Below, one piece after another: positions 5,717 through 37,849 of a stretch of DNA of 37,849 nt (within the stretch, counting starts at the first letter, position 1; each line of letters opens with the position of its first letter). The notes beneath the pieces were generated by a model. The model was given only the letters and a program-made list of their open reading frames with translations, searched no databases and was not told the DNA's origin. The DNA is from Deltaproteobacteria bacterium. Its GTDB lineage: Bacteria; Desulfobacterota; Dissulfuribacteria; Dissulfuribacterales; UBA5754. The DNA is taken from contig JAINCN010000025.1 in NCBI GenBank assembly GCA_036574075.1, positions 67,336 through 105,184 of the forward strand. Direction: 5' to 3'. The translations under genes and the position numbers were made by a program.

Positions 5717-5724
5717 TGTAAAGC

Positions 5725-5804
5725 CTGAATCCGTGAGAACGGAACAAATACATAGGCGGCCTGCCTGTGCCAGGCACGGCAGACAGATCGGCTCATGGAT
5801 TCAG
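5725..5804. repeat. Family A repeat, short form (A1a)
   Basis: CTGAATCCGTGAG (5725-5737) and its near-complement CTCATGGATTCAG (5792-5804) enclose a G+C-rich core containing CTGCCTGTGCCAGGCACGG. The same core recurs at 11,299-11,367. It lies directly upstream of the hrcA promoter. Confidence 0.75.
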
Positions 5805-5864
5805 GAAAAGGGCGCCATCAATGTTGAATATACGTTCATTTTCGATTAAGTGAATGCGTTCAAC

Positions 5865-5989
5865 CTGAACGCCGTGAGCCTGCGGCCTAGGCATGTATGG
5901 ATGGGGGCTATTTGCCGCATGAAACAAATACCCCGGCCCGTAGGCTCACGGATTCAGGTGAATATCGGGCGCATAACCCACGGATTCAG
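5865..5989. repeat. Family A repeat, rearranged partial copy (A1b)
   Basis: Begins with CTGAACGCCGTGAG and ends with CTCACGGATTCAG (5945-5957), followed by a further CACGGATTCAG at 5979-5989. The right part is the reverse complement of the left part of the full copies (CGGCAAATAGCC and GGGGTATTTGT segments), so this is an inverted, internally deleted copy. With A1a it fills most of the 364-bp gap between hrcA and the next gene. Confidence 0.7.
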
Positions 5990-9344: not shown

Positions 9345-9403
9345 AGGTCTGTCCAAGCGGGTGTCTTCGTCCTGTATCCGTCAGTTCGATAGCTGCAAGG
9401 AAG

Positions 9404-9562
9404 GGGAGGGGGTGCGGGGCAGTGCCTCATCGGCCGGATAACCGCTTTGGTGATGCAACTGCCTTTTCGGCCGTTGACGCGAGGTGCCATGCAAGGCCCT
9501 GCGGCCGCCTGCCCTGGCTTTCTGGATCCGGCCTGATTCAGCACTACCCCGCACCACCTCCC
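9404..9562 (+). repeat. Family B repeat, left hairpin (L1)
   Basis: Outer arms GGTGCGGGGCAGTGC (9411-9425) and GCACTACCCCGCACC (9541-9555), extended by GGGAGG/CCTCCC, enclose a roughly 115-nt core starting CGGCCGGATAACCGCTTTGG and ending CTTTCTGGATCCGGCC. Near-identical copies lie at 22,954 and 23,204. No coding gene: short frames here differ between copies. Followed by a linker with a small hairpin (AAACC...GGTTT) leading to R1. With R1 it fills most of 9,345-9,863. Confidence 0.88.
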
Positions 9563-9630
9563 TGGATTACATGGGCGTACAGCAAACCTTACACGAGGGT
9601 TTGGACGGATGGGTGCACGGCGCAAGTGGA

Positions 9631-9788
9631 GGCTGGTGGGGCGGGCCGTTGTGGAGGCGGGCGGATCCAGAAAGCCAGGGTAAGCGGGCACCGGGCCTTG
9701 CATGGCACCTTGCGTCCTCGGACAAGACAGCCGCTATATTGCCAAAGCGGTTATCCGCCCGCCGGAACAACGGCCCGCCCCACCAGCC
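9631..9788 (+). repeat. Family B repeat, right hairpin (R1)
   Basis: A 158-nt element whose outer 22 bases (9631-9652, beginning GGCTGGTGGGGCGGGCC) are exactly complementary to 9767-9788. A GGA/GGA internal loop follows, then a second perfect 11-bp stem (GGCGGGCGGAT with ATCCGCCCGCC), then an 86-nt apical region. That region is, in reverse complement, clearly related to the core of L1 (AACCGCTTTGG, AAGGTGCCATGCAAGGC, CTGGCTTTCTGGATCC shared). Copies at 23,433 and, inverted, 37,662. Confidence 0.9.
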
Positions 9789-9863
9789 GATTGCCATGAT
9801 GCGGGTCCTCTGTGTCATGAAACCGGACAGTTTGTTTGCTCCCAACAGCTTTCAACGCAAGCC

Positions 9864-11298: not shown

Positions 11299-11367
11299 CT
11301 GAATCCACGGAACATCCACCTGAACGCCTGCCTGCGCCGGGCACGGCAGACAGGTCGGCTCACGGAT
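11299..11367. repeat. Family A repeat, short form (A2)
   Basis: CTGAATCC at the left and CTCACGGAT at the right, with a core (GCCTGCCTGCGCCGGGCACG then GCAGACAGGTCGG) nearly the same as A1a. It fills the 77-bp gap between the convergent radical SAM and HDOD genes, where its hairpin could act as a two-way transcription stop. Confidence 0.75.
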
Positions 11368-22700: not shown

Positions 22701-22803
22701 CATTGATGTCCTCGTAAAAAGTGCCAGACTTGATCCGGCATCCAGAACATATTGAAAAACGCCGGATTCAGTCATGCGCCGGAATAATACAAAAACCGGA
22801 ATC

Positions 22804-22953
22804 CTGAATCCGTGAGCCGACGGCCGGTGTGTTTGTTCCGTGCGGCAAATAGCCTCCTGTCCATGGGGGCGGATTTGCCGTTTGAGCCCTGTCCATGGGC
22901 GCCACACTCCGCAAACACCCCGGCCGTTGGCTTATGCTGTGAAATCAAAAGGT
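22804..22953 (+). repeat. Family A repeat, 3'-truncated (A3)
   Basis: Starts CTGAATCCGTGAG (22804-22816), keeps the CGGCAAATAGCC and CAAACACCCCGGCCG segments and CTTATGCTGTGAAATC, then stops abruptly where family B element L2 begins. The terminal GCATATCTCACGGATTCAG is missing. Confidence 0.8.
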
Positions 22954-23112
22954 GGGAGGGTGTGCGGGGCAGTGCTTCACCGGCCGGATAACCGCTTTGG
23001 TGATTCAACTGCCTTTTCGGCCGTGGACGCGAGGTGCCAAGTGAGGCCCTGCGGCCGCCTGCCCTGGCTTTCTGGATCCGGCCTGATTCAGCACTACCCC
23101 GCACCCCCTCCC
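22954..23112 (+). repeat. Family B repeat, left hairpin (L2)
   Basis: Almost identical to L1; arms TGTGCGGGGCAGTGC and GCACTACCCCGCACC. It is joined directly to truncated A3 and is not followed by an R element: similarity to L1 ends just after CAGCAAACC (about 23,139). A short A-like scrap (GTGAATCCGTGGGCC, about 23,158) lies between L2 and L3. Confidence 0.88.
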
Positions 23113-23203
23113 TGGATTACATGGGCGTACAGCAAACCCTTCCAGATGATGCGGTGGTGAATCCGTGGGCCGAGGGTTGTGCGATCCATTGGGATGAAAG
23201 GTG

Positions 23204-23364
23204 GGGGAGGGGGGTGCGGGGCAGTGCCTCATCGGCCGGATAACCGCTTTGGTAATGCAACTGCCTTTTCGGCCGTGGACGCGAGGTGCCAAGTGAGGCC
23301 CTGCGGCCGCCTGCCCTGGCTTTCTGGATCCGGCCTGATTCAACACTACCCCGCACCCCCTCCC
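23204..23364 (+). repeat. Family B repeat, left hairpin (L3)
   Basis: Third copy of L, with one extra G in the left arm. Followed by the same 68-nt linker as at 9.56 kb and then R2, so L3-R2 repeats the whole L1-R1 arrangement. Confidence 0.88.
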
Positions 23365-23432
23365 TGGATTACATGGGCGTACAGCAAACCCTACACGAGG
23401 GTTTGGACGGATGGGTGCACGGCGCAAGTGGA

Positions 23433-23590
23433 GGCTGGTGGGGCGGGCCGTTGTGGAGGCGGGCGGATCCAGAAAGCCAGGATAAGCGGGCACCGGGCCT
23501 TGCATGGCACCTTGCTTTCTCGGAAAAGATTACTGCTACATCGCCAAAGCGGTTATCCGCCCGCCGGAACAACGGCCCGCCCCACCAGCC
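23433..23590 (+). repeat. Family B repeat, right hairpin (R2)
   Basis: 158 nt, outer 22-bp arms perfectly complementary as in R1. The apical region differs from R1 at scattered positions while the stems are unchanged. Sixteen bases (CACGATTGAGGTATGA) separate it from A4. Confidence 0.9.
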
Positions 23591-23606
23591 CACGATTGAG
23601 GTATGA

Positions 23607-23779
23607 CTGAATCCGTGAGCCAACAGCCGGTGTGTTTGTTCCGTGCGGCAAATAGCCTCCTGTCCATGGGGGCGGATTTGCTGACAGCGCCCGTCCGCGG
23701 GCGCCTCCATCCACAAATACCCCAGCCGTAGGCTTATGCTACGAAATCGAAAGATTGAGTGCATATCTCACGGATTCAG
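23607..23779 (+). repeat. Family A repeat, full length (A4)
   Basis: 173 nt bounded by CTGAATCCGTGAG and CTCACGGATTCAG. Same internal plan as A5. It ends about 21 bases before the likely plsY start, so the element is in the plsY leader. Confidence 0.9.
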
Positions 23780-23800
23780 GTTATTTATTTCCGGGTTCAT

Positions 23801-25813: not shown

Positions 25814-25904
25814 GGCAGAAGGTTGTGAGCGGTGAGAGGATCAGTTTAGCGCAGTAATCGGCCCTGCGAATATGTCCGGAATGCGATTGTGGAACAGCAT
25901 AAAT

Positions 25905-26076
25905 CTGAATCCGTGAGCCTACGGCTGGGGTATTTGTTTCGTGCGGCAAATAGCCCCCATCCATGGGGGCAGATTTGCCGACGGCGCCCATCCGTGGGCG
26001 CCTCACTCCACAAATACCCCGGCCGTAGGCTTATGCTGTGAAATCGAAAGGTTGAGTGCATATCTCACGGATTCAG
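25905..26076. repeat. Family A repeat, full length (A5), between ntrY and ntrX
   Basis: 172 nt. Pairings seen: P1 CTGAATCCGTGAG (25905-25917) with CTCACGGATTCAG (26064-26076); P2 25917-25937 with 26010-26030 (20 of 21 exact, the other a G-U; core GGGGTATTTGT/ACAAATACCCC); P3 hairpin 25944-25980 (CGGCAAAT...ATTTGCCG around GCCCCCAT/ATGGGGGC); P4 hairpin GGCGCCCA-TCCG-TGGGCGCC (25983-26002). An unpaired 33-nt stretch lies 3' of P2. The rest of the 397-bp gap (26,081-26,210) holds no gene, only a CTCTGTGTCCTCTGTGCTCC stretch. Confidence 0.92.
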
Positions 26077-26210
26077 GATAAATATAGAGAGATTTTCTCT
26101 GTGTCCTCTGTGCTCCCTATGGTGAGATATGAGTCAATTGGTTGCGTGTATCACCTTGAGAGGGCTTTCAAAAAGGCTACCGGGAAGGGGGGAAAGACGC
26201 AAGACATCTC

Positions 26211-37433: not shown

Positions 37434-37546
37434 GCAGTTCGATCGACGAGGAATCTTGCAGATAAGCCTCTGAACGGGAAGATTTTTCACTCTCTTCGGT
37501 CCTAAAAACGTAAATTGTCGGAGTAGAATTCATTTACCCTGCGAAA

Positions 37547-37645
37547 TAAGCCTAAGGCCGGGGTATTTGTGGTGTGAGGCAACCATGGACAGGAGGCTAT
37601 TTGCCGCACGAAACAAATACCTCGGCCGTAGGCTCACGGATTCAG
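37547..37645 (-). repeat. Family A repeat, internally deleted, inverted (A7)
   Basis: Reads as the reverse complement of the other copies: TAAGCCTAAGGCCGGGGTAT at the left, then CTATTTGCCGCACGAAACAA and CTCACGGATTCAG (37633-37645) at the right. The P4 hairpin and most of P3 are lost; the P2 arms are kept. Confidence 0.8.
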
Positions 37646-37661
37646 GCATACCTCAATAGTG

Positions 37662-37819
37662 GGCTGGTGGGGCGGGCCGTTGTTCCGGCGGGCGGATAAC
37701 CGCTTTGGCAATGTAGCGGCTGTCTTTTCCGATGACGCAAGGTGCCATGCAAGGCCTGGTGCCCGCTTATCCTGGCTTTCTGGATCCGCCCGCCTCCACA
37801 ACGGCCCGCCCCGCCAGCC
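37662..37819 (-). repeat. Family B repeat, right hairpin, inverted (R3)
   Basis: 158 nt, reverse complement of R2 with scattered changes. It is joined to A7 by CATACCTCAATAGTG, the same joint (inverted) as between R2 and A4. The linker toward an L element begins (CTCCACTTGCGCCGTGCACC) and runs off the window end. Confidence 0.9.
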
Positions 37820-37849
37820 TCCACTTGCGCCGTGCACCCATCCGTCCAA

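Follow-up and report, generated by a model that had tools for sequence, protein, structure and literature searches.

An intergenic, high-copy mobile element with IS1380-type ends and a likely TwoAYGGAY/Csr-type RNA core in a deltaproteobacterium

Results

Architecture of the element and its copies in the window

The window examined here is a stretch of 37,849 nucleotides from a deltaproteobacterium of the UBA5754 lineage (GenBank assembly GCA_036574075.1, contig JAINCN010000025.1, positions 67,336 to 105,184), and it holds several copies of a dispersed repeat (Table 1). The original prediction had placed two full copies at 23,607–23,779 and 25,905–26,076, and both were found there. The inverted ends that it described as shared among the copies are also real, while the exact boundary was misplaced by one base on either side: judging from the flanks of 30 long genome matches, the C before and the G after belong to the element, which thus runs from CCTGAATCC to GGATTCAGG. 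With the inverted ends CCTGAATCCGTGAG...CTCACGGATTCAGG, most copies are 174–176 bp in length. The further copies at 22,804 (truncated at the 3′ side) and 37,547 (internally deleted) as well as the short ones at 5,725 and 5,865 were broadly as described, and a covariance model of the core (see below) found 22812–22934, 37547–37637 and, weakly, 5875–5949. For the copy placed at 11,299, the analysis covered the repeat and 13-mer listings.

Table 1. Features of the element and related repeats in the window
Feature	Position	Strand	Basis or remark
Whole element, type copy, ends included	25904–26077	+	Terminal inverted repeat and target-site duplication boundaries; first base T, C in most copies
Left 5-bp target-site duplication, ATAAA	25899–25903		Sequence
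Right 5-bp target-site duplication, ATAAA	26078–26082		Sequence
Left terminal inverted repeat, (T/C)CTGAATCCGTGAG	25904–25917	+	Sequence
Right terminal inverted repeat, CTCACGGATTCAGG	26064–26077	+	Sequence
P2 stem, 5′ arm (21 bp, pairs with 26010–26030)	25917–25937		Fold, covariation
P2 stem, 3′ arm	26010–26030		Fold, covariation
3 × 3 internal loop, side one (minus strand: GAA here, in many copies GGA)	25938–25940	−	Fold, loop counts
3 × 3 internal loop, opposite side (minus strand: nearly invariant GGA)	26007–26009	−	Loop counts
Hairpin P3 (hexaloop ATGGAT at 25959–25964; CANGGANG with closing pair)	25944–25980	−	Fold, covariation, loop counts
Hairpin P4 (hexaloop ACGGAT at 25990–25995; CANGGANG with closing pair)	25983–26002	−	Fold, loop counts
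P5, small hairpin between P2 and the right end (loop GAAA)	26031–26063	+	Fold
Match to Rfam RF01731 (TwoAYGGAY), whole model 1–168	25906–26041	−	42.6 bits, E = 6.1e-6; gathering score 43
Second full copy, 175 bp, without exact target-site duplication	23606–23780	+	Sequence, fold, covariance model
Copy cut at the 3′ side at the start of a family-B palindrome	22803–22950	+	Sequence; covariance model, 22812–22934
Internally deleted copy	37546–37646	−	Covariance-model core 37547–37637, 54.1 bits
Short copy bounded by terminal inverted repeats, with nested GCCTGCCTG-type repeat	5724–5805		Repeat listing
Short rearranged copy	5865–5958	−	Weak core match 5875–5949, 22.3 bits
Family B members	22952–23113, 23200–23360, 9400–9560, 37659–37821	+	
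Family B members	23431–23593, 9629–9791	−	

Several variants of the repeat were noticed in passing. A 90-nt form, in which the hairpins P3 and P4 are fused into one, occurs at 37547–37637 of the window and at the loci L106, L109, and L110; both the home genome and a sister species have it. A repeat of the type GCCTGCCTG...CAGGCAGAC is nested in several degenerate copies (5759–5800 and 11326–11367 in the window, and also at the loci L081, L159, and L299). The window further contains a second repeat family, called family B here, with longer palindromes of about 160 nt each. Our covariance model matched four of them at 30–53 bits because a long stem and a similar internal loop are common to both families; the internal loop of family B is TCC/TCC (GGA/GGA on the minus strand) in three of these four palindromes, and family B is without the twin ANGGAN hairpins.

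The element is abundant in its home genome (66 contigs; 1,986,167 bases, i.e., 2.0 Mb). Places matching CTGAATCCGTGAGCC with at most one mismatch numbered 210, against none for the reversed control, and a BLAST search with the 172-mer, in which 40 of 266 candidates were scored, gave at least 66 matches, at least about 40 of them long. The covariance model found at least 78 matches in the genome, and the 97 model matches sampled in the home-genome loci correspond to 96 distinct cores; the element is hence present in at least 96 distinct copies. None of 127 copies lay inside a called open reading frame (for 28 of the 127, the locus had a called gene on one side only), so that the element is strictly intergenic, as had been proposed from the window.

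Target-site duplications and IS1380-type ends

Mobility of the element is well supported. Exact 5-bp duplications bordered 31 of the 71 full-length home elements for which both flanks were available and 7 of the 16 such elements of the sister species, against zero in both when the flank partners were shuffled. With up to one mismatch, the numbers were 38 of 71 and 12 of 16 (shuffled partners, 1/71 and 0/16); the other elements (33/71 and 4/16), having two or more mismatches in the duplication, are presumably old or recombined. A pair of empty and filled sites was also available: one copy is inserted in an IS1380 remnant on contig C39 (L080), an uninterrupted remnant is present on contig C37 (L083), and the target TTCTC occurs once in the latter and twice at the filled site, exactly at the ends of the element.

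The IS1380-family transposase (NF033539) was found as fragments only, with a best score of 52 bits against the cut-off of 180. The pieces are broken or located at contig ends, which suggests an insertion sequence in several copies that the assembly has split. In the home genome, N-terminal fragments are at the contig ends of C43 and C63 and C-terminal ones on C39 and C37; the fragments are bounded by CCTGGATCCGTGAG (13/14, one base off the element end), which is present at both ends of the split insertion-sequence copies. On contig C35 of the sister species, about 100 bp separate CCTGAATCCGTGAG from an N-terminal transposase fragment further inward; also in this species, the 14-mer of the left end, with C as its first base, stands ahead of an IS1380-type transposase start (L084). 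Since the ends of the element match those of the IS1380-type fragments or differ from them by one base, the element is almost certainly a miniature inverted-repeat transposable element (MITE) with IS1380-type ends, and an IS1380-type transposase would have moved it in trans. The remark in the original prediction that the element was not recognizable as a named repeat is thus superseded. IS1380 elements produce 4–5-bp duplications, have ends beginning with CCT (as in ISEcp1), and encode a DDE transposase.

As in other MITEs of the IS1380 family, then, the element shares its ends with transposase fragments, makes 5-bp duplications, and occurs in high copy number; unlike them, its interior is a conserved structured module, and beyond the ends we noticed no sequence common to the element and the insertion sequence. 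No named relatives of the transposase were found among the genome contigs searched, where the records of the home genome are perhaps absent. Fragments of a second IS1380-type transposase were also observed (L081 and L082), of which the downstream end has no CCTGAATCC end in the expected direction.

A branched fold maintained across four sequence lineages

The predicted folding energy of the window copy was −109.7 kcal/mol (z = −12.9 versus 200 shuffles) and that of the second full copy at 23,607 was −81.8 kcal/mol (z = −7.05, also versus 200 shuffles). The branched fold suggested previously, comprising an outer stem, a 21-bp stem, and two separate hairpins, was reproduced; what had been missed are a fifth small hairpin (P5), which is missing from a shorter sister-species form and from the copies in another genome, STE_37, and a 3 × 3 internal loop that separates the 21-bp stem from the two hairpins.

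Compensatory changes, which the first description had considered testable, are present in the stems. The alignment used for the analysis of covariation comprised 35 cores, of which 12 were from the home genome, 11 from the sister species, and 12 from STE_37, chosen as diverse picks from 137. With the structure of the window copy as the pair reference, which favors it over slid controls, and with shuffles that do not keep relatedness, 87.6% of the cells were paired versus 75.8% in the shuffles and 39–47% in the slid controls, and double-change cells numbered 185 versus 61.8 and 10–49, respectively. Double changes occurred in 21 of the 47 pairs. Two of the five covariation measures were not above the shuffles, namely the number of double-change pairs (94 of 500 shuffles as high) and that of further pair types (340 of 500).

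A covariance model made from this alignment, R1, matched cores in 5 of the 46 genomes of the class: the home genome, the sister species G001 (54 matches), STE_37 (at least 78), G002 (one), and the complete genome G033 (one). The copy in G002 has kept a degenerate right end. STE_37 has two forms with different stem sequences, type I (GGGCGAGGG...) and type II (GGGGCGGCAG...), while the core of G033 represents a fourth sequence, and the CCTGAATCC ends are absent from all of these three forms. When the consensuses of the four lineages were compared, 31 of 43 ungapped pairs held in all, with a double change in 18 of those 31; among the ungapped columns, 30 of 94 paired but 12 of 21 unpaired ones were identical, showing that the stems turn over and the loops stay. 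Because the stems covary across four lineages, three of which are without the IS1380 ends, we conclude that the branched fold is real.

A pattern scan over one genome per species (84,980 species) returned 54 stretches in UBA5754, STE_37, one cave contig of the SulCav series, and two others; the pattern matches in Xanthovirga and Tenericutes were dismissed as chance, neither being found by the model at E values up to 1. In a DNA search throughout the phylum (395 genomes, two candidates scored in each), only the home genome, STE_37, and a 38-nt end match in G113 were hit. The cave contig, 3 kb in length and belonging to the bin SulCav_AS07-7, carries a home-type copy (L276, core 821–942) and is labeled Syntrophus aciditrophicus, a label or binning that may be wrong. 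As for the arrangement in STE_37, type I and type II cores were seen in convergent pairs (L141 at 1570–2480, L142, L143, and L146), often in tandem units of about 576–693 bp, and in one array of 196-bp tandem units the core is cut in half.

Conserved GGA loops on the minus strand

Read on the minus strand, both apical loops of the element conform to CANGGANG, and a further GGA is located in the internal loop, where it is nearly invariant on one side and alternates with GAA on the other. Nearly all home copies have ATGGAC or ATGGAT as the P3 loop, and nearly all have ATGGAC, ACGGAC, ATGGAT, or ACGGAT as the P4 loop; in G033, P3 has ATGGAT and P4 has ATGGAC. In STE_37, all of the 45 distinct copies have ATGGAG, AAGGAG, AGGGAG, AGGGAT, or AAGGAT in P3, and 28 of them have a P4 loop without GGA; most of the STE_37 loops end in G, and a degenerate P4 is frequent there. 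Counted on the minus strand, CANGGANG occurred twice in 70, once in 20, and not at all in 6 of the 96 home cores, the corresponding numbers being 18, 11, and 2 in the sister species (n = 31) and 6, 39, and 0 in STE_37 (n = 45), and it occurred twice in the single copy of G033. On the plus strand, it was found in 1 of 173 cores.

Conservation in the 96 home copies also differed between positions. The four fixed letters of the loops were off consensus in 6 of 767 cells (0.8%), in comparison with 56 of 384 (14.6%) for the two free letters, part of whose variation falls at CpG sites. For the stems, the numbers were 133 of 1344 (9.9%) in P4, 326 of 4023 (8.1%) in P2, and 43 of 2684 (1.6%) in P3; within the home genome, conservation of the P3 stem comes close to that of the loops (p = 0.12 for the difference). 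The element presents GGA in ANGGAN hexaloops closed by a C–G pair, a feature of the CsrB/RsmZ type, and the two loop GGAs are 25–31 nt apart. As an apical hexaloop, CANGGANG is described as a high-affinity target of CsrA/RsmE, with an optimum GGA–GGA spacing of 18 nt and a spacing of 21 nt in a natural site (PMC4894983).

Match to the TwoAYGGAY RNA motif

The loop pattern had been noted ahead of the Rfam match to TwoAYGGAY (RF01731), which covers the whole model on the minus strand of the window copy (Table 1). A match to a known repeat family had been named among the observations that would refute the first description, and such a match exists in part, with the minus-strand core scoring at or about the cut-off of this family: against the gathering score of 43, two other copies reached 45.5 bits (sister copy L060) and 44.3 bits (home copy at 12900 of contig C25), and many copies are below it. 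The copies in STE_37 and G033 gave no match. At the gathering score with default filters, there was none in 20 loci and none in the whole window. With strict filters, 7 of 46 class genomes and 0 of 14 control genomes had matches, the sole one over the cut-off being the C25 copy of the home genome; two places of this genome were at E ≤ 0.01, one of them over the cut-off, and none was found in G001, G003 (STE_37), or G033. Weak matches to RsmZ (16.7 bits, E = 0.042) and RsmW (21.3 bits, E = 0.17), both in the same Rfam clan as TwoAYGGAY, were obtained from other lineages.

In common with TwoAYGGAY (clan CL00106), the element has a basal stem and two apical hairpins with AYGGAY loops (ATGGAC, ATGGAT, ACGGAC, and ACGGAT in the home copies), about 27–29 nt lie between the GGAs, and the whole model is matched at or about the gathering score. 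Based on these likenesses, the core is likely a TwoAYGGAY/Csr-type module on the minus strand. It differs from TwoAYGGAY in its 3 × 3 internal loop and long basal stem and in riding in a MITE with about a hundred or more copies; also, TwoAYGGAY, described in 2010 as a probable RNA, has been published from human gut, gamma-Proteobacteria, and Clostridiales (PMC2864571). In 2014, it was proposed to bind CsrA (PMC4333381), where this role is called work in progress and tandem GA pairs in a stem are mentioned as well.

The other six genomes with RF01731 matches (G005, G014, G015, G017, G018, and G032; loci L302–L310) have twin CANGGANG hairpins on unrelated long stems at no more than four places per genome. 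All of these matches are below the threshold; several places each were seen in G005, G017, and G018, and three of the loci have common flanks containing GCGGCAACGGGG and GCGGTTTTCTTTGGTTC or similar. Ten RF01731 loci were examined, including the home copy; the CANGGANG motifs number two or more in nine of them, and one locus has a single motif.

Possible CsrA partner and tests of an RNA role

The home genome contains a complete csrA gene (for a CsrA of 83 amino acids) followed by fliW. CsrA was present in all 11 class genomes with an R1 or RF01731 match versus 32 of 46 overall (p = 0.0097 by a simple draw that ignores kinship); because CsrA is common in the class, this is weak evidence for a CsrA role. 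At the end of the csrA–fliW pair, a decayed copy of the element, missed by R1, starts on the fliW stop codon (L299, 2254–2438).

By a codon-score gene call, the orientation of the copies was not significantly biased: both flanking genes agreed with the minus strand for 30 copies and with the plus strand for 19 (p = 0.15), and of the remaining 50 copies, 34 had divergent and 16 convergent genes on their two sides. With fewer copies and a cruder gene call, the numbers had been 24 to 10. One-sided changes showed no preference for G–U over A–C on either strand (the counts being 37:27 for the home copies and 45:53 for those of the sister species, leaving out the loop-closing columns 50–61 and 89–117 and the slipped column 83–123), as expected if most copies decay neutrally. 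The strand preference differs among the relatives, in that wobbles favor the minus strand in STE_37 and the G033 core folds better as the plus strand.

Discussion

We have described a mobile intergenic element in which a known orphan RNA motif is present in a mobile, high-copy form. Taking the observed and the supposed steps together, we favor, with some reservation, the view that the element is an IS1380-type MITE by which a TwoAYGGAY/Csr-type RNA module is spread. An IS1380-type transposase would move the element in trans and thereby duplicate 5 bp of the target; the minus strand would be the functional one, its transcript being expected to form the long stem, the 3 × 3 internal loop, and the two apical hairpins presenting CANGGANG hexaloops. 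When a copy is within a transcript read in the minus sense, the pair of loops could be bound by a CsrA dimer, so that a single copy might act as a cis site in the untranslated region of a neighboring gene and many copies together as a distributed decoy lowering free CsrA. As to whether CsrA does bind the module in the cell, we consider the chances evenly balanced.

The main competitor, to which we assign a distinctly smaller probability, is a purely selfish MITE whose palindromic core would serve transposition or replication as DNA, in the form of a cruciform or single-strand hairpin, with CsrA uninvolved. Template switching or correction of one arm by the other would keep its arms equal, and the matched-arm subfamilies (GCCTACGGCC, GCCGACGTTC, and GCCGGCGTTC with matching partners) could indeed come from such correction; the lack of an orientation bias and of a wobble asymmetry in the home and sister genomes is what maintenance at the DNA level predicts, and the lineages of other genera that have the core without IS1380 ends can also be counted on this side. 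The TCC/GGA loops would then be read by a DNA-binding protein or simply be inherited by descent, but this leaves unexplained why loops rather than stems are most conserved across four lineages, why their pattern is exactly CANGGANG, and why an independent RNA model, RF01731, reaches its cut-off on the minus strand. The same conservation of the loops and the match to TwoAYGGAY are left unaccounted for if the element is regarded as an RNA hairpin like REP or ERIC that acts locally on mRNA as a 3′-end stabilizer, RNase III site, or partial terminator with no contribution of CsrA. This idea agrees with the very stable fold, with the absence of all 127 copies from called open reading frames, and with several copies near the ends of flanking genes, including the decayed one directly on the fliW stop codon; the window copy has no U-run after its hairpins, however, and we regard the idea as improbable. 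That the element is of the REPIN type, with a RAYT (Y1) transposase providing its mobility, is hardly credible, and this origin was rejected on co-occurrence and target duplications: Y1_Tnp matches are found in the home genome and STE_37 but also in 27 of 46 genomes overall, they are absent from two of the five carriers of the element (G002 and G033), and the 5-bp duplications and IS1380-type ends point to a transposase of the DDE type, as generally ascribed to IS1380.

The favored reading, a MITE dispersing a TwoAYGGAY/Csr-type module, resembles established CsrA antagonists in part. CsrB/CsrC and RsmX/Y/Z similarly display GGA in hairpin loops, but they are stand-alone sRNA genes with several GGA sites, whereas the element has two to four GGA per copy in very many copies. 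By description, it can also be likened to the reverse complement of Bacillaceae-1 (RF01690), which was proposed together with TwoAYGGAY to bind CsrA and in which the motif is likewise on the strand opposite to the first-described one (PMC4333381).

More tentatively, and in our view with the odds against it, a transposon family may have acquired an RNA that binds CsrA and carried it to a hundred or more sites between genes, by which the regulator would be titrated and its regulon rewired; mobile copies would then do the titration of CsrA in place of a CsrB-type sRNA gene. If so, additional forms of this arrangement would be found in other genera of the order, namely the multi-copy carriers of TwoAYGGAY whose outer stems are unrelated. 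Our literature search over titles and the openings of abstracts found no report of a CsrA-binding repeat that is mobile or present in high copy number.

Since 2010, TwoAYGGAY has had the status of an orphan RNA, and many bacteria are described as having CsrA but no known CsrB-type sRNA (PMC4894983). A high-copy mobile carrier in an organism with csrA–fliW provides many natural replicates for addressing both the role of TwoAYGGAY and the regulation by CsrA without CsrB. Should CsrA indeed bind the module, the element would be a transposon that distributes binding sites for a global RNA-binding regulator.
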